Source: Candidatus Heimdallarchaeota archaeon
GTDB taxonomy: Archaea; Asgardarchaeota; Heimdallarchaeia; Heimdallarchaeales; Kariarchaeaceae
Assembly: GCA_015522385.1 (NCBI GenBank)
Contig: WAMJ01000177.1
Span: 1-18,042 of the forward strand
Reading direction: 5' to 3'
Length of the DNA stretch: 18,042 nt
Of the stretch, positions 1,486-18,042 are shown in pieces. Made by a program: the position numbers and the translations under genes. The notes under the pieces are model-generated. The model had not been told where the DNA came from. It ran no database searches and saw only the letters and a list, made by a program, of their open reading frames with translations. Position 1 is the stretch's first letter. Every line of letters begins with the position of its first letter.

Positions 1486-2532
1486 TTACTTGAATGCTGC
1501 TTTCAATTTATCTTGAAGTTGCTGCTTGAGTTGTTCGGCCGAGAGTTCTTCTATATTTGTGACCTCTTCTGCCTCGTCTTCAGCGTCCTTCTTACTTGGA
1601 GTTTCTTCTTTCTCATCTGTAGGGGCCTTCTTGAGATTGGCAAGAGCACTCTTCAGCGCACCCTCCGATACAAGACCACCTCCCATTGAGGGAGCTGAAG
1701 ATTTTGGAGTTTCCTCTTTCGGTGGAGCTTTTTTCAGATTAGCAAGTGCGTTTTGCAATGCACCTTGACTGACCAGACCGCCCCCACCCATCGGAGCTGG
1801 GCTTGCCGTTGCGGGTTCCTTCGGAGGCGCTTTGCTCAAGCTACTGATTGCATCCTGAAGAGCTCCTCCAGATACAAGACCACCACCAAGGTTAGGCCCT
1901 GCAGGAGTAGATCCAGGAGTGCCCCCGAGATTGGGACCAGAAGGAGTACCGCCAAGATTAGGACCAGAAGGAGTACCGCCGAGATTAGGACCAGTGGGGG
2001 TACCACCGAGATTGGGACCAGAGGGAGTGCCTCCGAGACTGGGGGCAGAAGGAGTACCACCGAGACTGGGGGCAGAAGGAGTACCACCGAGATTAGGACC
2101 AGAAGGAGTGCCTCCGAGACTTGGACCAGTGGGGGTGCCTCCGAGACCGGGACCAGAAGGAACGGTCGGAGTACCACCAAATGACGGTCCACCAGATGAA
2201 GGAGCTCCAGCTGTGGCTACAGGGGCTACGGACGGGGATCCAGTTCCAGGAGTACTAAATACCGGTACCTGTGCCTTGGTTCCCATAATATTCAGGGGAC
2301 CTAAATTCAGTCGCTCTACGGGGATCATTGCAAGATCTTCAACGATTGAATCAAATTTTTCCTCATCGTCGGTCACTCTCCGATTTAGCTTTTTGAGCCT
2401 AAGTGACGTCTCACTAACGAAGTCAATTATCTTGGTTCCCACATTGTCGATCTTAATTGCTACATCCTTTACCTGTTGCTTATCTTCTGCTCCAAGAATT
2501 ACACTATCGATAAAGTCCTCTAAGTCGCTCAT
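1486..2532 (-). CDS. Coiled-coil protein with Gly/Pro repeat linker and three 34-residue C-terminal modules
   Basis: A 348-residue protein without recognised enzymatic motifs. Residues 1-75 are a charged helical, probably coiled-coil segment (KIIDFVSETSLRLKKLNRRV in its middle). Residues 95-215 are Gly/Pro/Ser/Thr-rich, with eight exact-length copies of a nine-residue unit LGGTPxxPx at 130-201. Then come three modules of pattern GGGLVSxGALxxALxxLxKAP whose leucines (219, 253, 287) are exactly 34 residues apart. An acidic stretch follows, then a final helix at 326-348. No signal peptide or membrane helix is seen. The layout (short coiled coil, flexible Pro-containing linker, repeated short helical motifs ending in basic LKK) recalls eukaryotic actin-nucleation factors, and the N-terminus has a weak resemblance to BRK1/CCDC53-type coiled coils; this is inference only. 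ATG 2532 fits a TATA box about 30 bases upstream. Confidence 0.85.
   Translation of the reverse strand: MSDLEDFIDSVILGAEDKQQVKDVAIKIDNVGTKIIDFVSETSLRLKKLNRRVTDDEEKFDSIVEDLAMIPVERLNLGPLNIMGTKAQVPVFSTPGTGSPSVAPVATAGAPSSGGPSFGGTPTVPSGPGLGGTPTGPSLGGTPSGPNLGGTPSAPSLGGTPSAPSLGGTPSGPNLGGTPTGPNLGGTPSGPNLGGTPSGPNLGGTPGSTPAGPNLGGGLVSGGALQDAISSLSKAPPKEPATASPAPMGGGGLVSQGALQNALANLKKAPPKEETPKSSAPSMGGGLVSEGALKSALANLKKAPTDEKEETPSKKDAEDEAEEVTNIEELSAEQLKQQLQDKLKAAFK
1603..1887 (-). repeat. Three protein-level modules with 34-residue period
   Basis: Within the coiled-coil/Gly-Pro gene, the motif GGGLVSxGAL is repeated three times with exact 34-codon (102-base) spacing. Copies 2 and 3 share ALANLKKAP, and copy 1 is more diverged (AISSLSKAP). 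Pro/Lys/Glu-rich spacers separate them. Each looks like a short amphipathic helix followed by a basic, extended stretch, as in short linear binding motifs. Confidence 0.75.
1930..2145 (-). repeat. Eight tandem 27-bp units coding the LGGTPxxPx linker
   Basis: Eight in-frame 27-base units span residues 130-201 of the coiled-coil protein. The variable positions alternate between S/T, G/A and N/S, and a ninth lengthened unit (LGGTPGSTPAGPN) follows at 202-214. On the plus strand the units read as variants of AGATTAGGACCAGAAGGAGT. Near-identical neighbours suggest recent slippage or recombination, so copy number may vary between strains or be misassembled. Confidence 0.9.
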
Positions 2533-4392: not shown

Positions 4393-6390
4393 TTAGGTTG
4401 AAGAATGCTCCTTGAGCTTCATTTCGTAGTCTTCTTTGAGGGTGAGGAGTTCCTTCTCATGCTTGGACTGAAGCTGTGATATTTTCAGCTCATTTTCCTG
4501 TATGAGTTGTTCCTTCTGCAATCTGAGTTTTTCTTCATACTCATTGGTCAGATCTTTGATCTTCGCCTCATATTCTGATTTGAGTCTGTTCTCTGTCTCT
4601 TCTACAGCATGAACCTTCTCCTCCTCAAATTGCTTCCGCAACTCATTGACTGTCTCTGCATTCTTTTCGTTTGATTGGGACAGCTGTTTGTTAAACTGTT
4701 CTCTCAGCATCTCTTCTTGTTCAGATAACTTGGCATTGAGCTTTCTATCCATCAGCGCGGTGTTCTGGTCTATCTCGTCCTTCATCTTGGACTCCATCTC
4801 TTCAAGCTGGACCTTATGAGCCTCGAGGAGCTCATTCTTCTCCTTCTCAAAGGACTCCTTTAACTCCCGCTTCTGCCCATCTAATGCCTTCTGGTGTTCG
4901 GCTTTCAGCTCTTCAATCTTCTTAGAAGTCTCCTCCCTCTGCGCGGCAAGAGCAGCTTCCTTTTCAGATTCGAACTTTGCACGCTCACTGGCTAGCGTCT
5001 CCTCAAACTCCTTTGATTTAATCTCGATGGCTTCTTGGACTTTGGACTCGGCATGAGTCTCCTTATCCTTCTCAAGGGCCCCCAGAACTTCGGAAGTCTT
5101 AGATCCATCAGGGCTGAAATAGTCTGACAGAACGCTCCTCAGGATTTGAAGACTTTCTATGTATGCGGGTACATTTTCGTACTCTTCATTATCAAGTTTC
5201 TTCTGTACCTCTTCAACTATGGTCTTCTGGACATTTGATAGCATAGTTGTAAATTCACTTGGATAGTCCTCATGGATTCTGAGTGATTGCTGTCCCTCGA
5301 TCTTCTCAACCTCTGCTTTGATCTCTCTTCCCAACTTATCCTTCTTGCTCTCAGCGTTGATCTCAATCTCGTAAGGACCGAAGTACTGCACCTGCTGGTT
5401 CTTGAGCATGTTGAAATATGTGATCTTTCCTCCAAGTTTAACCTTGATGTCTGCAGGAGTAGAGGTTTGATGTCTGAGGTGGAGGACTAACTGTTCATGC
5501 TGTTCGGGATCGAAGGTCTGGTACTCTTTGACAGTATCACCATCGACAAGTTCCAACTCGGATGGAAGTTCCAGCTCTACCCTCGCATTACTCGCAACTC
5601 CCTCACCTGTGTTCATGAGGTCAATCTTTACCTCGAAGATCTGGTTCACTACGATGTCTTTGGGTAGTTCACTGGAAATCAACATAGAGGGGAGTTTGAT
5701 CTGATCCTGGAAATGAGAGAGTACATCATCAACAACTTGATTCAGGAGGGGCTCAATTCCGCTGAGTTTCATTTTAGACAGAGATGGTCTAATCTGAGAT
5801 GCTATGAGTCGTTGGGCCTCCTGCAATGACTCATGGGACACTTCCTGAAGAGCCTGTAAGACGTACCCGACCACCCAAACGGTCTGTACGAGGTTCTCCT
5901 TACCAATCTGTATCTTTCCTTCGGCAGATTTCTTCTCGATTGACTGAAGTGTATTCTCATAGACACTTTTCGCCTTGTCATAGTCCTTTAATAGAACGTA
6001 GATCAATCCACCAAGAGCGGCACAGGTCACACCATGGGAGTACTCTTCATAGGTGTTGATGTACATATTGGCAGCTTCCATGAGTTGTTCTCCGACCGTG
6101 CTGTAGAGTTTCTCTGCTTCATCCTTCTGACCAAGTTTGAGGTACCCCAAACTCGTGAGGTAATATGCTTCTGCAGCAGATCTGTACTGTTTCTGCTCTG
6201 CATACTTCTGAGCCTTGGTCATACCATTCTTGACCGCAGAAGTATACAGAGTGTTCGCTTTACCGACATTACCGTTTGTATATTCGATGTCTCCGTTCTG
6301 GATCAGCTTGAAGGGATCAGTCTCCCCCTCCTCGCTGTCTGCACCAATTTTCGCAAATAACTCATCTCTAAATGCCATCTTCGCGCTCAT
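4393..6390 (-). CDS. TPR / Ig-like / long coiled-coil protein
   Basis: A 665-residue soluble protein, not recognised as a named family. Residues 25-230 are an alpha-helical repeat array with TPR-like helix pairs (AAEAYYLTSLGYLKLGQKDEA, DYDKAKSVYENTL). Residues 235-347 look like a beta-sandwich of the CARDB/Ig type (FEVKIDLMNTGEGVASNARV is characteristic). Residues 350-430 are helical. Residues 440-662 are a nearly uninterrupted Glu/Lys-rich coiled coil that would be about 30 nm long if fully extended. No membrane segment is seen. The TPR region suggests partner binding and the coiled coil suggests dimerisation or a spacer, so a scaffold or tether is the most natural reading. It follows pyruvate kinase by 72 bases on the same strand and precedes the MoaD-like gene by 32. 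ATG 6390 has a weak AT-rich TATA-like stretch 20-27 bases upstream. Confidence 0.85.
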   Translation of the reverse strand: MSAKMAFRDELFAKIGADSEEGETDPFKLIQNGDIEYTNGNVGKANTLYTSAVKNGMTKAQKYAEQKQYRSAAEAYYLTSLGYLKLGQKDEAEKLYSTVGEQLMEAANMYINTYEEYSHGVTCAALGGLIYVLLKDYDKAKSVYENTLQSIEKKSAEGKIQIGKENLVQTVWVVGYVLQALQEVSHESLQEAQRLIASQIRPSLSKMKLSGIEPLLNQVVDDVLSHFQDQIKLPSMLISSELPKDIVVNQIFEVKIDLMNTGEGVASNARVELELPSELELVDGDTVKEYQTFDPEQHEQLVLHLRHQTSTPADIKVKLGGKITYFNMLKNQQVQYFGPYEIEINAESKKDKLGREIKAEVEKIEGQQSLRIHEDYPSEFTTMLSNVQKTIVEEVQKKLDNEEYENVPAYIESLQILRSVLSDYFSPDGSKTSEVLGALEKDKETHAESKVQEAIEIKSKEFEETLASERAKFESEKEAALAAQREETSKKIEELKAEHQKALDGQKRELKESFEKEKNELLEAHKVQLEEMESKMKDEIDQNTALMDRKLNAKLSEQEEMLREQFNKQLSQSNEKNAETVNELRKQFEEEKVHAVEETENRLKSEYEAKIKDLTNEYEEKLRLQKEQLIQENELKISQLQSKHEKELLTLKEDYEMKLKEHSST

Positions 6391-6462: not shown

Positions 6463-7965
6463 CTAATTAATCTGGTAGGTCCTCAGTCGACGCTTTCCCT
6501 CCTCTGCGTCTAGGATATCCTTGACTCGATAATACTGGATGAGGTTGGTGGGGAAAGGCTGACCCAGTTTGCTACCTGCTATAACAATGACTAGACCGTC
6601 CTTGGTCACTAATCCCTCTTTGTAGGCTTTATATATACCAGAGGAGATCATTGAGTCAGTGTCGAAATAGGTAATATTGGCAAATAGGGGAACCACACCC
6701 CACAGGAGGTTAAGTTGTCGCTTGACCTGGGGGGAGTTGGTAATCCCTATAATCGTCTGCTTAGGCCTGTACTTCGAAACTACTCTTGCTGTTCTACCAG
6801 ATCTAGTATTGGCAATAATAGCTTCTGCCCCTAGAGTATCTGCTAAGAGTACAGCAGATTTAGCTATCGCCTCTTCCGCAGAGATATTGTCTTCTTTCTT
6901 GAAGTAGTCTATGGGAAGGAGTTTATCCTGCAAATTTTTTATAATAGAGGCCATGACTTCGACAGATTGGAGGGGAAAATTTCCAGTAGCAGTCTCAGCA
7001 GAGAGCATAACGGAGTCTGCACCGTCAAAGATGGCATTGGCTACGTCAGAGGCTTCAGCTCTTGTTGGTCGTGGAGAGAACACCATGGATTCGAGCATCT
7101 GAGTTGCAACAATCACCGGGATACCGTGGAGATTGCACCTGTGCACAAGGTCTTTCTGAACGAGTGGTACCTCGGTGGGATCGATCTCTACTCCAAGATC
7201 ACCCCTTGCGACCATTACGGCATCAGTGCTCTTGAGGATCTCATCTATATTCTTAAGTGCATCTTGATGCTCTACCTTGGTGATGATAAGAGGCAATTCT
7301 GGATCGTCACGTCCATAGATACATCCAGTTTCATTCTCGATGAGAAACCTTACTTTCATTAAGTCCTCGGCACGTCGAACGAAAGAAACGGAGTAGAAAT
7401 CAGGTTTCAGATCCACTGTCTTCTTCAAGTCATTCACATCCTTCTTGGTTGGGGGATAGAGCCCAATCGGTATATTTGGTGTGTTTATACCCTTCCGAGA
7501 ACTTAGAGGACCACCCTTAAGGACCTCACAAGTAAGCTCGTCAGTTCCTTTCTTAATGACCTGAACCTCAATCAAGCCATCGTTTAGGAAGAAATGATCG
7601 CCGATGGATGCAAGATCAATTAATTCCTTATACGAGACCGACATCAACTCCTTGTTTCCAACAATCTCTTTTTTCTGCAGTTTAAATGTATCACCAGCAA
7701 TCAGGTTGTAAGACGACTCAAGCTCTCCTATCCGAATCTTAGGGCCGCTTAAGTCGAACATAACCGGGAGATTCTCATCAACATCTCTGATCATTGTAAA
7801 CCTCCTCCGAGCTTCTTCGATCGTTCCGTGTGAGAGGTTGATTCTCGCCATTCCTAACCCCTTGTCAATTAGGCTTTTGATCATCTCTGGAGTGTCACAA
7901 GAAGGCCCTATGGTACTCACGATACATCCTTTGAGGATTTGCTTTCTCCTCTTTTTGTCATTCAC
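6463..7965 (-). CDS. pyk: Pyruvate kinase
   Basis: Final step of glycolysis: phosphoenolpyruvate plus ADP gives pyruvate plus ATP, in the cytoplasm, with divalent metal and usually K+. The protein has 500 residues, the normal length. STIGPSC is at 17-23 and ARINLSHG at 40-47 (Arg, Asn and Ser ligands). DLSGPKIR at 71-78 enters the B domain, and ITKVEHQDAL carries the catalytic Lys230 and metal-binding Glu232. VMVARGDLGVEI is at 250-261 and ATQMLESM at 287-294. The C-terminal regulatory domain (about 360-500) is complete. The start is GTG 7965: there is no ATG upstream in frame, and a TATA box sits about 26 bases before it, indicating a leaderless message. It is divergent from the tubulin-like operon. 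Confidence 0.97.
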   Translation of the reverse strand: MNDKKRRKQILKGCIVSTIGPSCDTPEMIKSLIDKGLGMARINLSHGTIEEARRRFTMIRDVDENLPVMFDLSGPKIRIGELESSYNLIAGDTFKLQKKEIVGNKELMSVSYKELIDLASIGDHFFLNDGLIEVQVIKKGTDELTCEVLKGGPLSSRKGINTPNIPIGLYPPTKKDVNDLKKTVDLKPDFYSVSFVRRAEDLMKVRFLIENETGCIYGRDDPELPLIITKVEHQDALKNIDEILKSTDAVMVARGDLGVEIDPTEVPLVQKDLVHRCNLHGIPVIVATQMLESMVFSPRPTRAEASDVANAIFDGADSVMLSAETATGNFPLQSVEVMASIIKNLQDKLLPIDYFKKEDNISAEEAIAKSAVLLADTLGAEAIIANTRSGRTARVVSKYRPKQTIIGITNSPQVKRQLNLLWGVVPLFANITYFDTDSMISSGIYKAYKEGLVTKDGLVIVIAGSKLGQPFPTNLIQYYRVKDILDAEEGKRRLRTYQIN

Positions 7966-8096
7966 ATCTAGAAGCAGACTATAGAGAATATAAGCTTATT
8001 TCCAAGTCAGAATATTACTATTCTCTCTGTATAAATTCCATTTGTGCAGTCTGTTAAAGGTCAGTTTTAATTACTCAGGATATATGGAACTATTGC
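7966..8096. promoter_or_regulatory. Divergent promoter region between pyk and the tubulin-like operon
   Basis: 131 bases separate the two divergent starts. AGAGAATA (7983-7990) and its reverse complement TATTCTCT (8019-8026) form an inverted repeat with 28 bases between. For the plus-strand operon two TATA-like candidates exist. TATAAAT at about 8031-8037 would give a leader of about 35-40 bases. TTTTAATTA at 8065-8073 would give a leaderless message. No ribosome binding site precedes ATG 8097, which favours the leaderless option. Confidence 0.45.
7987..7994 (-). promoter_or_regulatory. TATA box of pyruvate kinase
   Basis: CTTATATT on the minus strand is centred about 26 bases before the GTG start of pyk, exactly where a TATA box of a leaderless archaeal transcript would sit. 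Confidence 0.6.
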
Positions 8097-9431
8097 ATGG
8101 TATCTAAGGGGTTATTCAAGAAGAAGCAAGGAAAGGATATGAGACTTGCAGTGTTTCCCAGTGAATTAATCGTGAAGGAGACGAAGAAGACGATTGAATC
8201 TCGGGAATACACTATGAGTTCCTTAAGCCCTAAGATCTACTCTTCGGAATTTATGAGCCCGAGTATCCCACTGATTGGGATAGGAGGAGCTGGGATTTCA
8301 GTTCTCACCAATATAGTTAGCAGGATCAAGGAATACCAGATTGATTACCAAACAGCGGGTATCGATCTGGACTGGAAGACTCTGGAAACCAATACAAATT
8401 TGACACATAAGTTAAAGTTGGGGAAATCTGGAATGGGGACTGCAGCACAATTCAGGCTTGGGACAAAATTTGCAAAGGAAGAGAAAGACACAATCAAACA
8501 ATTCATGGAGTCGTATCTACAGGAGTTCTCATATAACTACAAGCACGATATAATCTTCTTCGTTCTTGGCTCAGGTGGAACGGGCGTGGGAGTAGGGTTG
8601 GAAAGTATGAAGATTGCTAAGGAAATGGGTTATAGACCAGTACCAATACTCATTCTTCCTGATGAAAACGCATCTACAAGGGTAAGATTCACTGCCGCTG
8701 CAGGTCTCTATTACTTCAGCTTTGCACCAGGTGAAAGATCAGAGGGTCTGATGACTATTTTGATCGACAATCAGATCTTCTATGAAAATAATAAGAAGCT
8801 ACCAGAAGAGGAATTGCTGAAATACATCAACAGCAGTATTGGAGTGACCATCGGAGACCTACTTATTTCAACAGAGGTAAAGAGCGATGGATACTCTACC
8901 GATTTAAATGAATTCCTCGAGGTCTTCCGAACCGTGAAGGGAATTGGTTCAATTATGGACATGACATCATTACCCGATGCGAATGAGCTGAACTCATTTG
9001 TCAAGCAGAATATGGATGAAAGCATTGCCTATTCCGCAGATCCACAATCCTCCACTAGATCGTACTTCATGATTCAATCGAACAAGAAGAAGGTCACAGC
9101 TATTGACATGAGAAACACCCTATCGCTCTTCCAGAACAGTGACATCTTTCCGAAATACTCGATCTCTGATATCGGAGAGACAGAATATTTCAGGGTCCTG
9201 TCAGTCTTTAGCGGAGTTCAAATGAACAAGAGACTCCGGGATCTGATGATAGAAGCTGAAGACAACCGAGTGGATATTCTGGAAAAAACGAAAGGAGGAG
9301 AAATCAATAGCTCTGTGAATCAGAAGATTGAGAAGATAAAGGATGGAGAATCCATAGATGTACATACTGCGGAAGAGATCAGAGATACCCTTGTGAAAGA
9401 GGTTGTAGCCAAACGTAGAGGTGAGGCATAA
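8097..9431 (+). CDS. Tubulin/FtsZ-superfamily GTPase A (divergent)
   Basis: A 444-residue member of the tubulin/FtsZ superfamily, probably a GTP-binding, polymer-forming protein. The N-terminal nucleotide domain starts after a 55-residue extension. The first glycine loop is GIGGAG (61-66), close to FtsZ GVGGAG. A GIDLD strand sits where FtsZ has NTD, and the tubulin signature appears as GSGGTGVGVG (158-167). ILIDNQ (221-226) carries the Asn expected to contact guanine. The T7 loop, which in polymers acts on the neighbour's GTP, reads STDLNEF (267-273) in place of NxDxxD: the first Asn is Ser and the last acid is Glu. A C-terminal domain with FRVLSVFSGVQ follows, then a charged helical tail. 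ATG 8097 is the first in-frame start. The stop codon overlaps the next start (TAATG). It is too divergent to call FtsZ, CetZ or a known FtsZ-like family by eye. Confidence 0.85.
   Translation: MVSKGLFKKKQGKDMRLAVFPSELIVKETKKTIESREYTMSSLSPKIYSSEFMSPSIPLIGIGGAGISVLTNIVSRIKEYQIDYQTAGIDLDWKTLETNTNLTHKLKLGKSGMGTAAQFRLGTKFAKEEKDTIKQFMESYLQEFSYNYKHDIIFFVLGSGGTGVGVGLESMKIAKEMGYRPVPILILPDENASTRVRFTAAAGLYYFSFAPGERSEGLMTILIDNQIFYENNKKLPEEELLKYINSSIGVTIGDLLISTEVKSDGYSTDLNEFLEVFRTVKGIGSIMDMTSLPDANELNSFVKQNMDESIAYSADPQSSTRSYFMIQSNKKKVTAIDMRNTLSLFQNSDIFPKYSISDIGETEYFRVLSVFSGVQMNKRLRDLMIEAEDNRVDILEKTKGGEINSSVNQKIEKIKDGESIDVHTAEEIRDTLVKEVVAKRRGEA
9418..9424 (+). promoter_or_regulatory. Strong ribosome binding site for the operon's membrane protein
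   Basis: GAGGTGA, a full match to the archaeal anti-Shine-Dalgarno, lies six bases before ATG 9431 and inside the last codons of the first tubulin-like gene. Together with the TAATG overlap it argues for coupled translation. Confidence 0.75.
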
Positions 9432-10831
9432 TGAGTACAGCACCAAAAATTGGTACGTCATTCATCGAGGAACATCCTGTCAAGCTGAGGAGGAGTGATA
9501 TCAAATTCGACTTCGAAGATTTTCTGGAAGAGGTCGAAGAGGTTTTACCAGAGGGGATTGATAGCAACTACTACTCCTTGATAAAGGCACTCCAGAACCC
9601 ACTGAGGAATCTCACAAAGCTTCCAAGAGCACTGAGTACACTTCCAATCAATGCTCTCCTCTTCCAGCCACTAAAGACGATTCTGATCATATATGCTATA
9701 CCACTACTCATTTCTGCACCAATGATGTTCCTGAGTATCATGGCGTCCAAACTTGCATCCAGAGGTAACGCAGGAACAGGTATCGTCTTTACTATCATTA
9801 CAATAATTGGACTGGTTGTCACCCCGCTGTACATGAAGAATCTGTACACATCCTTTAGTAAAATGATCGAGAGTAACAATGTAAAGTGGTTAACTGGAGG
9901 GTTAAATCAGCCATTCACAAAATATTACCACAGAAGATGGCCGAAACTATTCTTCAGGCTGAGTTTCCTTATTCCACTAGTGCTAGAAGTTCAGATGTTC
10001 ATAATAGGATTATATACCAGCAGTACGCTCTGGTTGAATATCGTCTACATAGTTTTGACGCTAATTGGCCATGTCGGGATGGCTATCGTTATCTACGCCA
10101 ACTTCATGACACTCTACTTCGTCAGAGTCAATACTAAGTTGTATCTCGAATTACTAGGGAGGATCACAAACAAGGTCAAGGGATACACGGACGGACATGA
10201 GAGTATTCTTACCAAAAACACATTCGAGGTCGTCAAAGTATTGGCAGACAGTCCAGGACTGACCGTTGAGAACCTTGGTTCAATACCTCTATTGAGCTTC
10301 TTTACAACTGTTCTTGTCGTGAATTCAATGATATTCCTTCTAGGGGGTCCGCTCCTCTCTAACCTAATCGAGAACTTTGCAATCCATCAGAGGAACTTAG
10401 CGATCAAAGCACTATCGTCAGACCCTAGTAGTACAGCTAAAGATATCACAGAGGGGGCGGCTCTAGCGCTGCTTGATGCAAAGAAATTCATGTTTACCCT
10501 GATTTTCATCGTTGCCATGGTAATCTCCTTCGCCCTATCTCTTACACAGATAACTCCGATCTTTACGATATCTGGAATCATGGTGAGGTTTAGGGTAAAG
10601 GCCTTAACCGAACTGGATCCATATATCTATGAGGACTTGACCAACTTCGCACTGAATCGGAACATCTCTGAATTCGCAGATTCAACCACACTAAATCTCT
10701 TCATACTGAGACAGTACATCGGGAGTATGAAGACAAGACCAGTAAGCCTGTTCAAGCTCATATACTTCTCGTCACTGTTCCTGATCTACTCCTCAAGAGT
10801 GATTCCGGCACTAGTGGCTACATTCGCATAG
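9431..10831 (+). CDS. Multi-pass membrane protein encoded between two tubulin-like genes
   Basis: A 466-residue protein with no family I recognise. Residues 1-80 are soluble, with an acidic segment (FDFEDFLEEVEEVL, 26-39), then hydrophobic helices at about 83-106, 116-135, 173-195, 199-228, 284-308, 352-382 and 443-464. Loops at 136-170, 230-282 and 385-440 are hydrophilic and mostly helical. There is no cleavable signal peptide and no transporter motif. Its start overlaps the upstream stop by one base and its TAG abuts the next gene, so it is made with the two tubulin-like proteins. The most natural role is the membrane anchor or membrane-bending partner of the filament. A remote link to type IV pilus platform proteins (GspF/FlaJ type) was considered but not supported by a motif. 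Confidence 0.85.
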   Translation: MSTAPKIGTSFIEEHPVKLRRSDIKFDFEDFLEEVEEVLPEGIDSNYYSLIKALQNPLRNLTKLPRALSTLPINALLFQPLKTILIIYAIPLLISAPMMFLSIMASKLASRGNAGTGIVFTIITIIGLVVTPLYMKNLYTSFSKMIESNNVKWLTGGLNQPFTKYYHRRWPKLFFRLSFLIPLVLEVQMFIIGLYTSSTLWLNIVYIVLTLIGHVGMAIVIYANFMTLYFVRVNTKLYLELLGRITNKVKGYTDGHESILTKNTFEVVKVLADSPGLTVENLGSIPLLSFFTTVLVVNSMIFLLGGPLLSNLIENFAIHQRNLAIKALSSDPSSTAKDITEGAALALLDAKKFMFTLIFIVAMVISFALSLTQITPIFTISGIMVRFRVKALTELDPYIYEDLTNFALNRNISEFADSTTLNLFILRQYIGSMKTRPVSLFKLIYFSSLFLIYSSRVIPALVATFA

Positions 10832-10835
10832 GTGG
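10830..10835 (+). promoter_or_regulatory. Ribosome binding site of the second tubulin-like gene
   Basis: AGGTGG, overlapping the stop codon of the membrane protein gene, lies five bases before ATG 10841. This spacing favours ATG 10841 over the GTG at 10832 that directly follows the stop. Confidence 0.65.
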
Positions 10836-10840
10836 ATATC

Positions 10841-12001
10841 ATGCTGGCAAGACTACATTTAGTAAGACAATTCGAGCTCAGTATCATCTCCTGTGGTGAT
10901 GCGGGGATGGAACTCGGAGCATCGATTATCACCCTGCTCAAATCAATGGGTAAGGAAATGCACAAGAGCCTTGGAATAAATAGTGGTAGAATCGATCCGG
11001 ACTTGGACAAGGTGTTCAAGAAATACGTGAGTATTGATCCTAACACCGGTGGGTTCGCCCATGATCTCACGTCTGCAACAGCAGTTGCAGGTTCCAGCTA
11101 CGAGACCTTGAACAAGAGCATCGGAGGGATACTTCCCTCTAAGAATGGAATTCTGATGATCACTGTAGGGGGAGGGGGTACTGGTATCGCCAGTGCAATG
11201 ATCGTTCTGAAAATTCTTCGGGAGATCTACCAGCAGACACCACCTGTATTCCTCCTCCTCCCAGAAGTTTTCGAAAACTCCCGGGTTCACTACAATGTCT
11301 CACAGTTCCTCTACCACACAGTCTACAGCAATAATCCCATAGGGAATCCTGTGATAGTTATTGATAACAAGGCCACAGAGGGTGAGTACAAGGAACCCTT
11401 TGATGTTGTCGCAAAGAGGAGAATGGCGATCATCCCAAAAGCAATAGCGAATTTACTATATTCTGCCTTTACAAAGCCAAGGTATGAGGAGTACAACGCT
11501 GAATTTCGGGACTTTTCTGAGGTAATCCACACCTCGGGAATTGGAGTGCTCGTTGCAAAGGATCTCGAGAATGACCAAGGTGAGCTAAATCTCAGGTTTG
11601 ATGACATTCTCTTTGACTCGATAACGGAGATTACAAGTCTACCCCGTGAGAAGATAGCAGAGGCGAGGAAGGTCTTCATATCCATAATCAATGTTGATAT
11701 GCAACAGTTCCAGTTCACAGTAGAGGCAAAGAAGATCAAAGCACTATTCAAGGACACCTCACCATATCTCATCTTCGCTGACTCAGAGGAGGAAGAATCT
11801 AAGAGGCCAACACTTAATGCTATAGTCACGGGTCTTCCTCTACCACCGAGGGTAATACAGATCATGAAGATCGCAAGGGAATCAAGGAAGGATATGATCT
11901 TCAAAGAGATGGAAGGGTTAGAGGTTGTGAGTAATTTGGATCCAGGGAGAGTAGCAAACCTCGAAGAAGAGATTGAGAATTCCTACCTCAAGTATTCCTG
12001 A
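10841..12001 (+). CDS. Tubulin/FtsZ-superfamily protein B (divergent)
   Basis: A 386-residue second member of the superfamily, clearly different from protein A. Numbering from ATG 10841, the first loop CGDAGMELGA (18-27) has the G-xx-G-xxx-GA spacing of tubulin (GQCGNQIGA) rather than FtsZ. The signature loop is GGGGTGIA (110-117), keeping GGGTG but with Ala for the usual last Gly. IVIDNK (172-177) carries the candidate guanine-contacting Asn. The T7 loop is NAEFRDF (219-225), an NxExxD version of NxDxxD with both acidic positions kept. A C-terminal domain with FISIINVD and a Glu-rich end follows, rather like the acidic tails of tubulins. No membrane segment is seen. Third gene of the coupled operon. 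The superfamily call is firm on the combined loops; the specific family is unknown. Confidence 0.78.
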   Translation: MLARLHLVRQFELSIISCGDAGMELGASIITLLKSMGKEMHKSLGINSGRIDPDLDKVFKKYVSIDPNTGGFAHDLTSATAVAGSSYETLNKSIGGILPSKNGILMITVGGGGTGIASAMIVLKILREIYQQTPPVFLLLPEVFENSRVHYNVSQFLYHTVYSNNPIGNPVIVIDNKATEGEYKEPFDVVAKRRMAIIPKAIANLLYSAFTKPRYEEYNAEFRDFSEVIHTSGIGVLVAKDLENDQGELNLRFDDILFDSITEITSLPREKIAEARKVFISIINVDMQQFQFTVEAKKIKALFKDTSPYLIFADSEEEESKRPTLNAIVTGLPLPPRVIQIMKIARESRKDMIFKEMEGLEVVSNLDPGRVANLEEEIENSYLKYS

Positions 12002-12002
12002 T

Positions 12003-12012
12003 TTTGTATATT
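12003..12012 (+). promoter_or_regulatory. Possible TATA box of the lipid kinase gene
   Basis: TTTGTATATT directly after the stop of the second tubulin-like gene is TATA-like and would place transcription start about 20 bases before the TTG at 12056. The kinase gene may therefore also be transcribed separately from the tubulin-like operon. Confidence 0.35.
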
Positions 12013-12055
12013 GAAGCCATAAGTCTCAAAAAGACTGAATTTACATGTAGTATGT

Positions 12056-13012
12056 TTGAAAGATAGAAAATTCTATGGTATCTACAATCCTAAAGCAAGG
12101 GGAGGGAGAACGAAGAAATATAGCGAGAGGATTATTTCAGTTCTCGATGATCATGGTATCGACAACATGATTGAGTCGTCCTCCAGTATTGAGGATGCCA
12201 GATCCAAGGTCGAACAAGCACTCTCCGAGGGCTATAATACTCTCATAGCAATCGGAGGAGACGGTACAGTCCACCACATTGCTAATATGGCCATAGAATC
12301 AGATACACTCTTCGCCGTGATCCCTGCAGGATCTGGAAATGACTTTGCTGCCTCTCTCACCATGACCAACGACATAGATAGATCAATCGATACTCTCCTC
12401 GACGGTAAAGAGATGAAACTCAGTACAGTGCGAACAACGACATCGGATGGAAGTTTCTGGACAATAAATATCGCGGATGTTGGTCTGGGAGCTAAAGTGG
12501 CTTACTCTGCCCAGAGAAAACTGAAGTGGATGGCTGGACAGATCAAGTACGACCTCATCTCCGTTTGGGAGATATTTGCCCACAAAGCCTTCAATGCGAG
12601 GATAAACTTCGATGGGAATGAGGAAGAAATCCCCATGCACATGCTGATCGCAGGAATGGGGCAGACCGCGGCTTCTGGGATGAATTTTCTCCCTGATGTC
12701 AGATTCAACCATAACACCATGCAAGGGGGGATTATTCAGACCAATTGTAACAAATTCCAGATGGCCAGGGCTCTTCAGAAGGTAAGAAGGGCACAGCATA
12801 AGGACCTCCCATATATTAGGATGTTCAGAGCGAAAAAGATAGAGGTTGAAGTTCTGGGTGAAGAGATCATGGTCGAGTCCGAAGGAGAGATGAGGGGGAC
12901 AACTGCGTTGACTATGGAGGTTGTTCCCGAGAGGTTCAGGGTAATCGTTCCCAAGGAATTCCAGTTCGAAGATGAAAACATCATAGCGGTAAAGCAGAAA
13001 TACAAGACCTGA
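12056..13012 (+). CDS. Diacylglycerol-kinase-family lipid kinase
   Basis: A member of the DAGK/sphingosine kinase catalytic family (DgkB/YegS-like), which phosphorylates a lipid hydroxyl using a nucleotide triphosphate. The nucleotide loop IGGDGTV is at 66-72 and IPAGSGNDFA at 89-98. The C-terminal part ends with SEGEMRG around 275-281, where the catalytic acid (Glu276 or Glu278) of the family lies. The length of 318 residues is typical (about 300). The likely substrate in an archaeon is an isoprenoid glycerol or related lipid, but the sequence does not show it. The start is TTG 12056; an ATG four bases earlier runs into a stop in its own frame, and the conserved FYGIYNP strand begins at residue 6, so little can be missing. 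It lies 54 bases after the second tubulin-like gene on the same strand. Confidence 0.9.
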   Translation: MKDRKFYGIYNPKARGGRTKKYSERIISVLDDHGIDNMIESSSSIEDARSKVEQALSEGYNTLIAIGGDGTVHHIANMAIESDTLFAVIPAGSGNDFAASLTMTNDIDRSIDTLLDGKEMKLSTVRTTTSDGSFWTINIADVGLGAKVAYSAQRKLKWMAGQIKYDLISVWEIFAHKAFNARINFDGNEEEIPMHMLIAGMGQTAASGMNFLPDVRFNHNTMQGGIIQTNCNKFQMARALQKVRRAQHKDLPYIRMFRAKKIEVEVLGEEIMVESEGEMRGTTALTMEVVPERFRVIVPKEFQFEDENIIAVKQKYKT

Positions 13013-13078
13013 TTTTCCTGAATGTATTACTAAAGATAAAAAAGTATGAAGTTCAGATAATCCATTACGGAGAAAAAC

Positions 13079-13690
13079 ATGCGACCTGAGCTAAATCTAC
13101 GTCTCTCTACACTGAAGAGGTATGCGGTGTATGACTGCAACGGGATGGACATAGGTGAACCTATAGATATAGCTCTAGACTCATTAGACGAATATCGAGC
13201 TGCACACATCATTATTGGAGGAGGATTTATAGAAGAACTACTCGAAGAATTGGAGAGAAGGGACAACATCGACGAGTTCTTTCATCTCTCACAGATTAAG
13301 GAGGTGTTAAATGAAGAAATACACCTTACAATCAGTGAGAACGAGCTCAGCAAGACCGACAGCTCGGGTAACCTTCCAGAGAACCTCATTCGTTTTACAG
13401 AAATACATAGGATGAAGGTTTATGATGAGGAAGGCAACCCATTGGGTGAGACGATCGATATCGAATTCAAGAATGGGAGAACATATCTAGTAATACAAGA
13501 TTTCTCATTTAACCGGAATATGAGCTTATCGAGTGACTACAAGCAACGAGTAGATTTTATCATCCCAATATCCAAGATGACTTTCAAGAAAGATGAAATA
13601 GTGGCACCACTTAAAGCTGATAGTAGAATGGAACTGGTTGTGGAGAGTCTCAAACCCAAAAACAGAGGAATAGACACAATCTATATCTGA
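13079..13690 (+). CDS. Double PRC-barrel domain protein
   Basis: A 203-residue protein with two PRC-barrel domains in tandem. Domain 1 spans about residues 9-90 and domain 2 about 105-192. The duplication is visible as [18 protein letters not shown] (14-31) against [18 protein letters not shown] (111-128). PRC barrels are small beta-barrels used as protein-protein adaptors. In haloarchaea, PRC-barrel proteins (the CdpB group) are parts of the FtsZ-based division machinery; placement here beside tubulin-like genes makes an adaptor role worth testing, though PRC proteins are common in archaea and several unrelated roles are possible. ATG 13079 has GGAG six bases upstream. It is 66 bases after the lipid kinase, and one base separates its stop from the convergent ABC gene. 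Confidence 0.85.
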
Positions 13691-13691
13691 T

Positions 13692-14456
13692 TTATTTGGA
13701 GACCACATTACTTCGGATCTCACTGGGGAGCCCGAAGTGGTCGAAGATCGTCGGATCAGACCCATCGAAGACACGGTCATCCACAATCAGACCATCACGC
13801 ATGGTCAAGACCCTCATCCCCTCCCTCAGCTTAGTCACATCATGTGTCACCATGAGGATTGTAGGTCTCCAGTCAAGATCCTTGTTGATCTCAACCATGA
13901 GATCAATAATCATATCACCAGTGACAGTATCTAGGTCACCTGTAGGCTCGTCTGCAAGGAGTAAAGCAGGACGATTAATCAGGGCTCGTGCAATGCCGAC
14001 TCTCTGTTTCTCACCGCCCGATAGTTCCTCTGGATAGTTGAGTAACCGGTCACCCAGTCCGACCTTTTCGAGGATCTCCTTTGCGAGTGGTCTTCTCTCT
14101 GATTTAGGGGTGTTAGCAATGAGTAGCGGAAGCTCAACGTTCTCGATGGCGGTTAGCATATCCATGAGGTTGAAGTGTTGAAAGACAACACCAATCTCGG
14201 TCCGCCTCATCCGGGCTAGGTCGTCCTCACTTTTCTTGGAGAGATCAATCCCCTCAAACTTTACAGTTCCAGACGTAGGTTGGATCAATCCTCCAATAAG
14301 TGAGATGAAAGTCGACTTCCCAGATCCTGACTTCCCGAGTATCACGACGAACTCGCCCTTATCGATTCTGAGATTTATTCCTCGTATTGCATGGACAAGG
14401 GTCTCTCCCGAACCAAAGTCCTTCTTTACATCAATCATTTCTATTAAATTAGACAT
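13692..14456 (-). CDS. ABC transporter ATPase, MacB/LolD type
   Basis: ATP-hydrolysing subunit of an ABC system, 254 residues. Walker [10 protein letters not shown] is at 41-49, the Q-loop Gln at 93, the signature [10 protein letters not shown] at 145-154, Walker B LLLADEPT at 165-172, the D-loop DLD at 174-176 and the switch His at 205. The GD(L)D form after Walker B and the short length are typical of the LolD/MacB/FtsE group, which act as mechanical drivers of FtsX-like permeases rather than solute importers. ATG 14456 is preceded by GGAGGAG with a six-base spacer. It is the last gene of the operon, three bases after the other ATPase, and probably pairs with it as a heterodimer on the large permease. 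Confidence 0.95.
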
Positions 14457-14459
14457 AAT

Positions 14460-15386
14460 CTACTCCTCCATATCTGCGGGCTCAAGATAGACCCTGTTAT
14501 TCTCTATATGAAATCTCACATAGTTCTTGATCCCAACACGCTCCCTCACTTCCTGAGGGATACGAACGTTGCCAAATTGATCGACATACGCTACCTCCTC
14601 TCTCTGCGATGTCTGCCAGTTATCTGCTACCAGACCATCCATGGTTCTCTGTATCCCACTTATTTGCCCGTCGAGTATCTTGAAGGATTTCTGAGTAATT
14701 CTCTCGAACCTCGAGTCGTGTGTGACAACGAGCATCGTCACGCCCTGATCCCTGTTAATCTCCTTCAGGTAGTCTATGATCTCTAACGTTGTCTCTGAGT
14801 CTAACTCACCAGTTGGCTCGTCTGCACACAAAACCTTAGGCTCGTTCGCAAGAGCTATAGCCAGACCAACCCTCTGGGCCTCTCCTCCAGAAAGCTCACC
14901 CAACCGATGATTACGCCGATCGTAAAGACCAATTGCCTTGAGCAATTCCTCTGTTCGAGCCTTCCTCTTATTCCGCGGATATCCAGCGATACGTTGTGCA
15001 AACTCTATATTCTCCTCAGCGGTTAAGACTGGGAGGAGATTTCGTTCTGGAAGTTGCCACAGGAATCCCACAACCTTCATTCGATACTGTTCCATTAACG
15101 ACTGGGGTAATGCCTGTATAGGTAGAGGTCCTACGTTGACACTTCCTGCAGTAGGTCTGGTCATACCACCAATGATGTTCAGGAGGGTAGATTTCCCAGC
15201 ACCTGATGGCCCGATGACCGAGGCGAACTCCCCTGGCTTGATATCCATTTCCACACCCCGGAGTCCAATAATCCCCTCCATGCTGGCAGGGTCTTCATAC
15301 ACCTTGAGCAGGTCTCTAGTCACTATGCCATAAGGCTCGGGGTCCTCAAAGGAGAATCTAATGTCGAATTTTATCTGATTGCTCAT
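14460..15386 (-). CDS. ABC transporter ATPase fused to a C-terminal AbrB/SpoVT-like domain
   Basis: Second ATPase of the MacB/LolD type, 308 residues from ATG 15386. Counting from GTG 15395, Walker A GPSGAGKST is at 62-70, the signature LSGGEAQRVG at 168-177, Walker B LCADEPT at 189-195 and the switch His at 226. After the nucleotide domain a linker (240-265) leads to a swapped-hairpin AbrB-like unit at about 266-305: VDQFGNVRIPQEVRERVGIK matches the usual GRVxIPxxIRxxLGI pattern. Such domains bind DNA or dimerise; fusion to an ABC ATPase suggests dimerisation or feedback control, not shown here. I chose ATG 15386 because GAGGTGA sits five bases upstream; GTG 15395 would overlap the permease by eight bases. 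Confidence 0.93.
   Translation of the reverse strand: MSNQIKFDIRFSFEDPEPYGIVTRDLLKVYEDPASMEGIIGLRGVEMDIKPGEFASVIGPSGAGKSTLLNIIGGMTRPTAGSVNVGPLPIQALPQSLMEQYRMKVVGFLWQLPERNLLPVLTAEENIEFAQRIAGYPRNKRKARTEELLKAIGLYDRRNHRLGELSGGEAQRVGLAIALANEPKVLCADEPTGELDSETTLEIIDYLKEINRDQGVTMLVVTHDSRFERITQKSFKILDGQISGIQRTMDGLVADNWQTSQREEVAYVDQFGNVRIPQEVRERVGIKNYVRFHIENNRVYLEPADMEE
14463..14469 (-). promoter_or_regulatory. Ribosome binding site of the last ABC ATPase gene
   Basis: GGAGGAG on the minus strand, inside the last codons of the upstream ATPase gene, with a six-base spacer to ATG 14456. Confidence 0.65.
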
Positions 15387-15387
15387 G

Positions 15388-18042
15388 TCAGTCACCTCTG
15401 AGGACAGATCCAGTCTCCTGTCTTGCTAGCTTTAGTGTAGGAATTAGTGAAGCTACGACCGACGCCAAAATCATTCCAACGATAAACACATAGAATGCTG
15501 GTGGGAAATAGAAGACAATGATCTGCACCTGCGAACTATCTCCAAAGCTACCTAAAATCACAAAGTACCTAAGGATGATGAAGGTCATCCCTACGCCAAA
15601 AGTTATTGCATTGAGCAATATGAAAATAGATTCAGTTATAAGCAGTCTAAATATCTGATTTGAGACCATCCCTAGTGCACGATAGATCCCAATTTCACGT
15701 GATCGATCTGCTAGACTGATAAACGAGTAATACCCAATTGCAACGACTGAGGTAATAAGTGAGATGAAGATAAAGCTAGAAGAGAGTAATTTCAAGGTAG
15801 TATCAAATATACTACCCTCCGAATCTCGATTAGAGAAGGAGATTAAACCCAAACCAAGTAACGATATTTCATTATCTATCTTGTCAAAATCTGCAGAGTC
15901 ATCAATTTTCACTAACAGGCTAAAGTCCAATCCAGATGAGAGAGATTTGTTTGAAATACTAACTAGAGTATCAATATTCATTACAATAGGTACTGGAGCC
16001 TCGGGAGATCCGTCATTGTATCTCTTTACTATAGGAAACAGTTTGAAGAACCCACCGACCTTCATACGTACAGGTTTGTTGGAAATCCTCAGGTCGGCAT
16101 CGGATCCTACCTCATATCCTCGGAGCTTTTTCATCTCTGTACTTGTAAGGAATGTATCATTAGACCTGATAATATTCACCAGGTCTGGAAGAGATTTATC
16201 TGCAAAGTTATTTTTCCAATACAACACATTGGTAACAGAGTCTGGGTCAAGACCTATTGCATACGTTGATGAACCCCCATAACGATCGCCAGCCCCAGCT
16301 ATTAAGCTTACCGCCTTTATCCCCTCAATATCCTGAACTTTCTCGGTCAACTCCTTGGCTTTGGTGTAATTGCTGGTAGACATATACACCGTATCGTTAG
16401 CCCCGTTGGTGTATGCCCAAGTCTGTTGGTATGATTCCTCTACACTCCCAGGCATAGTCAGGAACAAACTCGTGACAACTATGCCAAAAACAAGAATTGC
16501 AGCCAGTCTCGATGCAGAGAATTTCGATTTTCTCAAATTCCTTGTTGCGAGAGCAAACATATCACCCCTCTTTGTCCAGAGCAAGTTGGATATCCATCCT
16601 GAGTATGACGGGAAATATCTCTCTACTATCAATGTGGTACCGAGGATGAACCCAACAATACCAAATGGAACAGTGATATAAACAAGAATTAGGAAAATTT
16701 CAGGAAGTCTGAAGTAACGTAGAGCTTCAATTATTACGTACTGAAGGATTCCAATAAGGAAAATAATAAGGTCAATATTGTACTTTCGGAAGAATGATTT
16801 CTTATTCTCCTCGGCTATATTTCCCTCTTCAATCGTCATTTTAATTAAAGAGAACACATTTGTGATATTCAGATCAAATGATAGGATCATCCCAACTAAC
16901 GGGACTTGCCAGTACCAACTCTGAGGAATGACATATTCTTGAAAGGTGCTAATATTTCCGAATATCTCAACTATCATGTTGTTAAAACCTATGAAAGGTA
17001 TACTCAACAGCATCCCAACTGCAATTGAGATGACAGAGGACACTATCAGTTCAAACATGACCATACTACCGATCTGGCGTTCCATGACACCACGAATCTT
17101 AGCTATGGTCATCAACTGCTCTTTACGTTTTCTGACAAGATTCACTGAGAAGTATATCAAAAAGAGTGCCAGACCAATCACAGGTGCAGACATTATAGAG
17201 CTAAATACTCTAATAAATGAGAGAAAATTACTGACAGATCTCAATTCACTTTGAAGGGGTGATCTGATAGAAGGATCACCTCCAATTTCGATATAGAGGG
17301 TGTCTACGAGATTGTCGAGATCTATCACATAATCTCCAATATCCGTATTTTGTAGATTTGGAGAACTCAGGTAATAATTGTATATTTCTATGACATTAAG
17401 ACCCTTACCCATGGCTTTATCGATGAAGTTAGTGTAAAATTTTGAGTGGATTAATATTATGTTGTTTGCATTGCTGATATCACTGAAATCTGATACGTAA
17501 AAATCACCAAGAGACACCTGCCTGCTAAGTTCAGTTGAGATTTCACCATTGACTTGAATCGGGATAGTAGTATTGATGGGATTTTCGTCGTATGATTTTA
17601 TCTGGATTTTTTCTATGTTAGTCTGGTGCGTAGCCGAGTATTGGGTATACAATGAAATATTGACCCCGTCTTCATACTTTACATTCAGATCAACATACTT
17701 GTTTATAAGATCGAATTTCTCCTTAGTTAGTTCAATAACAAACGTTTTCTCTAGAGACCCAATAGATGAATTTGCAGTATCTACGTAGTGCTCATAGAAA
17801 CGCCCGTATGTGAAATTTTCGTACTTTGTTACCTCAAATCCCTTTGACTCTATTTTACCAATGACACGATCGTTAAACTTCGGGTCCTTCCAAAATATTG
17901 GAAAGCCATCAATTTTTCTGTCCGACTGAGAGATCGTAATCCCTGGTACATTAAGTTCATTGACTTTGTCCTCAACGATTTTTTGATTTAAACTATCAGG
18001 TACAATGAGTGCCTGACTGATGATAATTATGGCAAGGAAAAG
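15388..18042 (-). CDS. Large FtsX/MacB-type ABC permease, 5'-truncated by window edge
   Basis: The frame runs from a TGA at 15388-15390 open to the right edge: 884 residues, with the start outside or at the edge. A TTG at 17652 is not the real start, because coding sequence continues upstream into LFLAIIIISQAL, which looks like the first transmembrane helix. Residues about 20-270 are an extracytoplasmic domain. Helices follow near 281-303, 326-352, 375-390, 423-441, 448-475 and 513-531. A second outer domain is at about 535-750, and three helices lie near 755-780, 805-830 and 845-870. Two FtsX-type halves are seen: an RKRKEQLMTIAKIRGV segment after the second helix and a RSREIGIYRALGMV segment after the helix near 755-780. 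These cytoplasmic segments couple to the ATPases. Substrate unknown; lipid or lipoprotein handling, peptide export or mechanotransmission are all possible. Confidence 0.93.
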   Translation of the reverse strand, partial: LFLAIIIISQALIVPDSLNQKIVEDKVNELNVPGITISQSDRKIDGFPIFWKDPKFNDRVIGKIESKGFEVTKYENFTYGRFYEHYVDTANSSIGSLEKTFVIELTKEKFDLINKYVDLNVKYEDGVNISLYTQYSATHQTNIEKIQIKSYDENPINTTIPIQVNGEISTELSRQVSLGDFYVSDFSDISNANNIILIHSKFYTNFIDKAMGKGLNVIEIYNYYLSSPNLQNTDIGDYVIDLDNLVDTLYIEIGGDPSIRSPLQSELRSVSNFLSFIRVFSSIMSAPVIGLALFLIYFSVNLVRKRKEQLMTIAKIRGVMERQIGSMVMFELIVSSVISIAVGMLLSIPFIGFNNMIVEIFGNISTFQEYVIPQSWYWQVPLVGMILSFDLNITNVFSLIKMTIEEGNIAEENKKSFFRKYNIDLIIFLIGILQYVIIEALRYFRLPEIFLILVYITVPFGIVGFILGTTLIVERYFPSYSGWISNLLWTKRGDMFALATRNLRKSKFSASRLAAILVFGIVVTSLFLTMPGSVEESYQQTWAYTNGANDTVYMSTSNYTKAKELTEKVQDIEGIKAVSLIAGAGDRYGGSSTYAIGLDPDSVTNVLYWKNNFADKSLPDLVNIIRSNDTFLTSTEMKKLRGYEVGSDADLRISNKPVRMKVGGFFKLFPIVKRYNDGSPEAPVPIVMNIDTLVSISNKSLSSGLDFSLLVKIDDSADFDKIDNEISLLGLGLISFSNRDSEGSIFDTTLKLLSSSFIFISLITSVVAIGYYSFISLADRSREIGIYRALGMVSNQIFRLLITESIFILLNAITFGVGMTFIILRYFVILGSFGDSSQVQIIVFYFPPAFYVFIVGMILASVVASLIPTLKLARQETGSVLRGD
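15392..15398 (-). promoter_or_regulatory. Ribosome binding site of the AbrB-fused ATPase gene
   Basis: GAGGTGA on the minus strand, in the last codons of the permease gene, five bases before ATG 15386. It decides the start of that gene. Confidence 0.7.

Follow-up and report, generated by a model that had tools for sequence, protein, structure and literature searches.

Two tubulin-superfamily paralogues and a membrane protein encoded by a conserved gene set of some Asgard archaea

The window analysed here is the whole stretch of 18,042 nucleotides of contig WAMJ01000177.1 from a Candidatus Heimdallarchaeota archaeon. Its plus strand carries three neighbouring open reading frames of 444, 466 and 389 codons, termed A, M and B. 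They are a real conserved gene set which part of the Asgard archaea possess. A and B are proteins of the tubulin/FtsZ superfamily and are kin to each other; nearly all genomes with the set also carry FtsZ, and the guanosine triphosphate (GTP) signature has been lost in one paralogue in a lineage-specific manner. M is a membrane protein. As far as our searches show, a system of two tubulin-superfamily paralogues with a membrane partner is undescribed. A cytoskeletal mechanism is the best-supported interpretation of these data, not a result.

The operon and its three proteins

A, M and B are a tight operon. The stop codon of A (TAA 9429-9431) shares one base with the start codon of M (ATG 9431-9433), and the stop codon TAG of M ends at 10831. 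A first-pass annotation had described two superfamily proteins with tight gene junctions flanking a seven-helix membrane protein; the three plus-strand frames, the one-base A/M overlap and about seven hydrophobic segments in M bear this out. Its start for B, GTG 10832, had to be given up. The GTG overlaps the Shine-Dalgarno-like stretch AGGTGG (10830-10835) and the homologues P0022 and P0023 begin at ATG 10841, which is therefore the better supported start. The locus extent, given as 8097..12001, stands for the A-M-B order and falls short in leaving a divergent pyruvate kinase gene (6463-7965) out of the conserved neighbourhood. A tRNA search of the window found none. The features of the operon are:

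8097..9431, + strand: gene A, tubulin-superfamily paralogue A, 444 amino acids (open reading frame call, Pfam, protein search, structure prediction, tree)
8277..8294, + strand: A, T1 glycine loop GIGGAG (joint alignments)
8568..8591, + strand: A, T4 GTP-signature loop GSGGTGVG, intact (joint alignments)
8895..8912, + strand: A, T7 loop STDLNE, both acidic positions retained (joint alignments)
9418..9433, + strand: Shine-Dalgarno-like GAGGTGAGG (9418-9426) and TAATG, in which the A stop overlaps the M start (read directly)
9431..10831, + strand: gene M, membrane protein, 466 amino acids, about seven hydrophobic segments, conserved hydrophilic parts predicted cytosolic (open reading frame call, hydropathy)
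10598..10639, + strand: M, KALTELDPYIYEDL, a conserved part of loop 378-444, which is predicted to be cytosolic (hydropathy, alignment)
10830..10835, + strand: Shine-Dalgarno-like AGGTGG, overlapping the M stop, 5 bases before the B start ATG 10841 (read directly)
10841..12001, + strand: gene B, tubulin-superfamily paralogue B, 386 amino acids from ATG (alternative start GTG 10832)
10889..10906, + strand: B, T1 loop SCGDAG (joint alignments)
11168..11191, + strand: B, T4 loop GGGGTGIA, with A in place of the final G of the FtsZ signature (joint alignments)
11495..11512, + strand: B, T7 loop NAEFRD, second acidic position retained (joint alignments)

Taken singly, the sequences point to the superfamily weakly, though above chance: in single-sequence Pfam searches A matches PF00091 with E 1.6e-7 and 32.3 bits at a cut-off of 33, and B with E 5.8e-4 and 20.6 bits. 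Profiles and structure prediction both place A and B in the tubulin/FtsZ superfamily. The four motifs from which membership had originally been read (glycine loop, signature loop, IDN motif and T7 loop) can be traced in A as well as in B when these are aligned jointly with FtsZ and tubulin or with FtsZ alone. Both proteins of the window combine a GTP signature (core G[GA]TG) with a T7 acidic loop, SGGTGVG and STDLNE in A, GGGTGIA and NAEFRD in B. The predicted structures, built from alignments of 19 and 5 rows which predate the wider family sets, show the two-domain tubulin/FtsZ fold for each protein, although confidence is low in the C-terminal half of B; A retains both tubulin domains and the T7 loop. 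The best structural Z score was obtained against CetZ2 (34.3 for A, 19.7 for B), and TubZ is the best solved-structure sequence for both profiles (A E 2.5e-16, B E 2e-16). Protein searches, in which about 8,000 candidates sharing most words were scored, returned 21 proteins for A, the window's own included, and 4 for B. Five of the proteins returned for A have a source label which names an organism: Kariarchaeaceae (3), Heimdallarchaeota (1) and Methanobacteriota (1).

A and B are closer to each other than to FtsZ. Comparison of hidden Markov model profiles gives E 1.7e-27 across 342 columns for A1-B1, 9.5e-15 for A1-FtsZ and 4.9e-7 for B1-FtsZ; the A1 profile matches tubulins and a CetZ-like Asgard group with weaker E values. 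In a tree of 74 rows A and B are united with a support of 100/99, and the opposite side is made up of FtsZ, tubulin and the CetZ-like group. They are separated from 25 Asgard FtsZ rows with 100/99, and the four tubulin rows form a single clade (100/99) in the opposite half. The A clade (99/93) and the B clade (96/85) have inner orders which broadly match. Approximately unbiased (AU) tests reject a placement of all A sequences with FtsZ (p 0.021), and the A sequences of clade 2, described below, give p 0.020 for the same placement. In a quick tree of the GTPase domain two partial Haloferax CetZ rows group with FtsZ and tubulin away from A and B, with a support of 99 in the Shimodaira-Hasegawa-like approximate likelihood ratio test (A 86, B 57). 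The FtsZ equivalog model TIGR00065 scores A with 40.4 bits, below its cut-off of 295.2, and matches neither B nor M. The A/B family is distinct from the FtsZ, tubulin, CetZ-like and partial CetZ rows tested. The original view that neither protein is a standard FtsZ holds, as tentatively does the same view for CetZ, within this sampling, in which branches are long, TubZ rows were left out and CetZ itself is represented by two partial rows only. Most likely A and B are products of one old gene duplication; this history appears less sure than the kinship as such.

The mean hydropathy of 18 M sequences shows about seven segments near positions 85-102, 115-130, 181-189, 203-225, 288-305, 351-377 and 445-458, as read from the alignment average and not from a dedicated transmembrane predictor. 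By charge, the conserved hydrophilic parts of the window protein are predicted to be cytosolic and a variable loop, 306-351, to lie outside. Such conserved cytosolic parts would fit an anchor which offers docking surfaces to A and B. A Pfam search with window M gave no match. A protein search with the M alignment returned 8 relatives. Pfam matches of the M family are scattered, the best (E 7.5e-4) occurring in 2 of 18 members, and no family is common to most of them; nothing convincing came from the PDB either, where an opsin ranked first at E 0.22.

Distribution, gene order and lineage-specific signature loss

Nine loci were initially collected from genome contigs with exact conserved-peptide patterns, which distant relatives can escape. 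Six of the nine have contigs reaching all three genes, and all six, from diverged relatives, are arranged A-M-B, the contig of L005 ending inside B; the other three loci end in M (L006) or in A (L008, L009). A search of 227 Asgard genomes at E 0.001 then gave tallies of 38 for B, 33 for M and 154 for A. Of the B tally 29 genomes were retained; the other nine had been matched through their A (G005, G007, G013, G037) or through a different protein of the superfamily (G042, G046, G051, G103, G110). The A tally is mostly FtsZ background (E above 1e-15); 33 were retained as A, including short fragments in G035 and G023. Any family member is present in 36 of the 227 genomes.

The gene order is kept over this wider set. 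Wherever a genome has both M and B (29 of 29), the two are co-directional on one contig, with gaps of 11-36 bases between the matches, and A and M share a contig at a distance of no more than 5 kb in 30 of 30. Two layouts exist. The window's clade, L064-L066 and L077 have the collinear A-M-B arrangement. In clade 2 (23 genomes, G014-G036) A stands apart from M-B, mostly in divergent orientation and often with a pyruvate kinase gene in between. In two clade-2 genomes, G016 and G021, the locus is intact and carries M, B and pyruvate kinase but no A, nor was an A found elsewhere in them. A is also unseen in G031, where the contig starts close by.

FtsZ accompanies the set. An FtsZ-level match to PF00091 (E 7.1e-34 or below) is present in 35 of the 36 genomes; in G005 the only match is its own A. 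The best PF00091 match of G007 is a tubulin, with FtsZ matched at 8.7e-44. This Heimdallarchaeota genome, the source of L008, carries a tandem tubulin pair (L010, L017), FtsZ (L023) and a gene A cut by a contig end, thus three superfamily branches together. SepF (PF04472) is matched at E 0.001 or better in 22 of 23 clade-2 genomes, and the window's clade together with the intermediate lineages, 13 genomes in all (G001-G007, G013, G037-G041), gave no match, although 12 of these have an FtsZ-level protein. M was considered as a replacement of SepF and rejected, because SepF is also unseen in some genomes without A/M/B, e.g., G042-G047, and is matched in nearly all of clade 2.

The GTP signature has a different fate in different lineages. 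Scoring the T4 core as G[GA]TG and counting rows, a few of which share one genome, the window's clade retains it in 11 of 12 A and 9 of 9 B rows, as do all 25 FtsZ rows. In L003, and likewise in P0017 and P0020, A reads GGFG instead of GGTG and is otherwise intact; the core is absent from L003 A. In clade 2 none of 18 A rows has the core (the region is absent in 3 of 21 rows), against 18 of 20 B rows. In the group of L064, L065, L067 and L068 the core is present in two of four A rows and in neither of the two B rows, which are from L064 and L065. The loss in clade-2 A with retention in B could be tolerated by a pair in which one working site is shared.

Near the set are two genes on the opposite strand:

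6463..7965, - strand: pyruvate kinase, divergently transcribed, conserved neighbour of A/M/B (Pfam, locus comparison)
4393..6390, - strand: protein with tetratricopeptide repeats (TPR) and a coiled coil (relatives near the set in L001, L003, L004, L007, L008 and L066, i.e., in 6 of 40 loci)

Pyruvate kinase adjoins A/M/B in 33 of 40 loci, corresponding to 32 of 37 genomes when the window is not counted and L004 is taken as one genome. Of the five remaining genomes, G014 and G040 have contig ends nearby, and G027, G018 and G029 do not have it there. Whether the TPR/coiled-coil protein is part of the system is uncertain. The downstream lipid-kinase (DAGK/YegS) and PRC-barrel genes (12056-13690, + strand) were rejected as parts, as no relative adjoins B in 40 loci (blastp E 1e-5). 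Elsewhere in the window, 1486-2532 (- strand) encodes a protein rich in Pro-Gly repeats of the GGTPS/GPNLGG type, without Pfam match and with a relative in L001 (4115-5398). At 13692-17652 (- strand) a row of two ABC ATPases and an FtsX-like permease is convergent with the PRC-barrel gene.

A proposed mechanism and its rivals

We propose, with a confidence just short of even, that A and B are a co-assembling, GTP-driven polymer which is held at the membrane by M and is distinct from FtsZ. Both proteins would bind GTP and polymerise together as a mixed protofilament in which A and B probably alternate. It would lie on the cytosolic side of the membrane, and the conserved cytosolic parts of M would dock and anchor it there. 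A composite interface, made up of the signature loop of one subunit and the T7 acidic loop of the next, would hydrolyse GTP and lead to filament turnover. The polymer may shape or organise the membrane beside the cells' ordinary FtsZ, and the neighbouring pyruvate kinase may link its activity or its expression to glycolysis. The heterodimer logic of AtubA/AtubB, as outlined in passages of PMC13394414 and PMC13371889, served as the model. Mixed polymer, anchoring by M, GTP hydrolysis, cell function and the pyruvate kinase link are what we infer. The first-pass annotation had suggested that the set could be an undescribed two-subunit membrane-anchored cytoskeleton; this is supported in part, since the predicted folds are tubulin-like, neither protein falls among the superfamily rows compared, and relatives share the gene order. 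A more far-reaching version is rather doubtful as a whole: a membrane cytoskeleton of two tubulin-superfamily sisters able to become a GTPase/pseudo-GTPase pair, with both sites working in the window's clade, A dead in clade 2 and B dead in a third lineage, with a dedicated polytopic anchor and with coupling to glycolysis via pyruvate kinase.

Several points weigh against the mixed polymer. Polymerisation, A-B contact and a cytoskeletal role are themselves arrived at by inference. B is poorly modelled in its C-terminal half, residues 251-338 having a predicted local distance difference test score (pLDDT) below 50. The losses are not cleanly reciprocal: in L064 and L065, where B has lost its signature, A is also off the strict core (GSTG in L064, degenerate in L065). 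Clade-2 A keeps the first T7 acid and has mostly lost the second, which would weaken a site formed by the GTP of B and the T7 loop of A. The orthology of clade-2 A is open to some doubt, since the A1 profile lies as near to B2 (4.9e-28) as to A2 (2.7e-28); a constraint uniting clade-2 A and B in one clade is rejected only marginally (p-AU 0.049). The separation of A from M-B in clade 2 also counts here, as do G016 and G021, whose intact M-B loci imply that A is not always needed.

The two FtsZ paralogues of archaea are thought to form separate homopolymers or regulators. A and B might likewise each form a homopolymer of its own, or act as a regulator, and share only the membrane partner M without any mixed filament. 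Most nucleotide loops and a T7 acid are present in A as well as in B of the window's clade, so that each could assemble alone, and the two genomes with M-B and no A are in keeping with this. We nevertheless consider it unlikely: clade-2 A is without signature loop (0 of 18) yet still is a linked neighbour in most of the clade, which suggests that A acts through another protein. A non-cytoskeletal task for the tubulin-like fold is improbable as well. Here A and B would be non-polymerising GTPase switches which gate or regulate M as a transporter, channel, lipid scramblase or receptor. The invariable adjacency of M and B (29 of 29), the failure of Pfam and PDB searches to assign M to a known family and the loss of nucleotide loops in some lineages are compatible with switches. 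Yet the predicted fold of A has preserved both tubulin domains and the T7 loop, the subunit-contact loop of the superfamily, and M has no convincing match to a transporter family.

The remaining alternatives concern origin and novelty. Descent from plasmid or phage segregation filaments of the TubZ/PhuZ type, now chromosomal, would agree with TubZ as best solved sequence for both profiles. We regard it as very improbable. By structure CetZ outranks TubZ for A, searches found no relatives of A or B in viral contigs and, with A as query, none in plasmids, and no TubR-like gene is among the window genes scanned with Pfam, a scan made without short open reading frames. A viral or plasmid origin was rejected as the principal explanation on the absence of viral (A, B) and plasmid (A) relatives. 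A also might be already catalogued as Asg.Tub, a CetZ-like group of Heimdallarchaeia and Lokiarchaeia (Santana-Molina et al., 2023, PMC9871819), with only B, M and the gene set being new. To this we assign a small probability. The inclusion of Heimdallarchaeia in that group speaks for it, as does the source label 'Tubulin-like protein CetZ' of the A protein P0016. Against it, the gene context described there consists of unknown genes, mostly encoding coiled coils, and in the main text of Santana-Molina et al. (2023) 'pyruvate', 'membrane protein' and 'transmembrane' each occur 0 times. Further, a separate CetZ-like Asgard group (L018, L069 at 7423-8757, L070, L071), not closely related to A or B, is a better fit and a candidate for the published Asg.Tub. 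The PDB matches of L070 are headed by CetZ1, followed by CetZ2 and by gamma- and alpha-tubulin chains. In L069 an open reading frame of 1143 codons (8761-12189) is located directly upstream of the CetZ-like gene on the same strand.

Asgard archaea are the closest known relatives of eukaryotic cells. If the co-assembling A/B polymer is real, a second, independently paired tubulin-superfamily branch would exist in the archaea nearest to eukaryotes, besides FtsZ and the Asgard alpha/beta-like tubulins. Specialisation of the subunits after a gene duplication has been proposed as the step towards tubulin heterodimers (passages of PMC13371889), and the A/B family would allow subunit divergence to be compared at different stages. 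A/M/B is a concrete candidate for membrane organisation in these cells. The gene link between a putative cytoskeleton and pyruvate kinase is testable; a similar link is reported for division in Bacillus subtilis, where FtsZ rings are mislocalised in a pyruvate kinase mutant, according to excerpts of PMC8270655.

Comparison with known systems

In the literature searched, with thin coverage of subscription papers and bioRxiv preprints, no report of the A/M/B gene set was found; the passages on Asgard tubulins and on Odin FtsZ which we consulted mention no such operon. CetZ is a haloarchaeal cell-shape tubulin homologue which coexists with FtsZ. It shares with A and B the archaeal setting and the highest structural Z scores, yet A and B are two sister paralogues accompanied by a membrane protein. 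TubZ is a plasmid segregation filament encoded in tubC-tubR-tubZ partition operons on plasmids or phages; it comes closest by solved sequence, and its partner is a DNA-binding adaptor whereas that of A and B is membranous. Asg.Tub, compared with A by description only, resembles it as a CetZ-like group with members in Heimdallarchaeia and differs in its published coiled-coil context.

Divergent superfamily members have been described before, one of them, FtsZl1, with a membrane-related gene context. In the portions of Makarova and Koonin (2010) available, FtsZl1 has a coiled coil and a helical C-terminus and is partnered with vWA, GTPase, kinase and OmpA proteins; FtsZl2 is proteobacterial and has no conserved partners. 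PF13809 (Tubulin_2, FtsZl1) does not match window A or B; a single one of 21 B rows matches it (E 0.013), and no vWA protein is among 22 neighbour genes scanned with Pfam. An assignment of A/B to FtsZl1 or FtsZl2 was rejected, as architecture and partners differ from these descriptions and PF13809 is unmatched in window A and B.

Archaeal FtsZ1/FtsZ2 with SepF resemble A/M/B as two paralogues of the same superfamily, and FtsZ requires a membrane anchor, which is SepF in archaea (PMC8178401). However, A and B lie outside FtsZ and coexist with it, and M is polytopic and has no SepF match in Pfam. Similar in layout are AtubA/AtubB, the Asgard tubulins of heterodimeric mini microtubules, which according to passages of PMC13394414 and PMC13371889 likewise are two adjoining, closely spaced paralogues. 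Tubulin rows, however, stand apart from A and B in our tree, and A and B are accompanied by M. The distribution differs too: tubulins are reported in about 1% of surveyed Asgard genomes (PMC13394414), compared with 36 of 227 for the A/M/B family.

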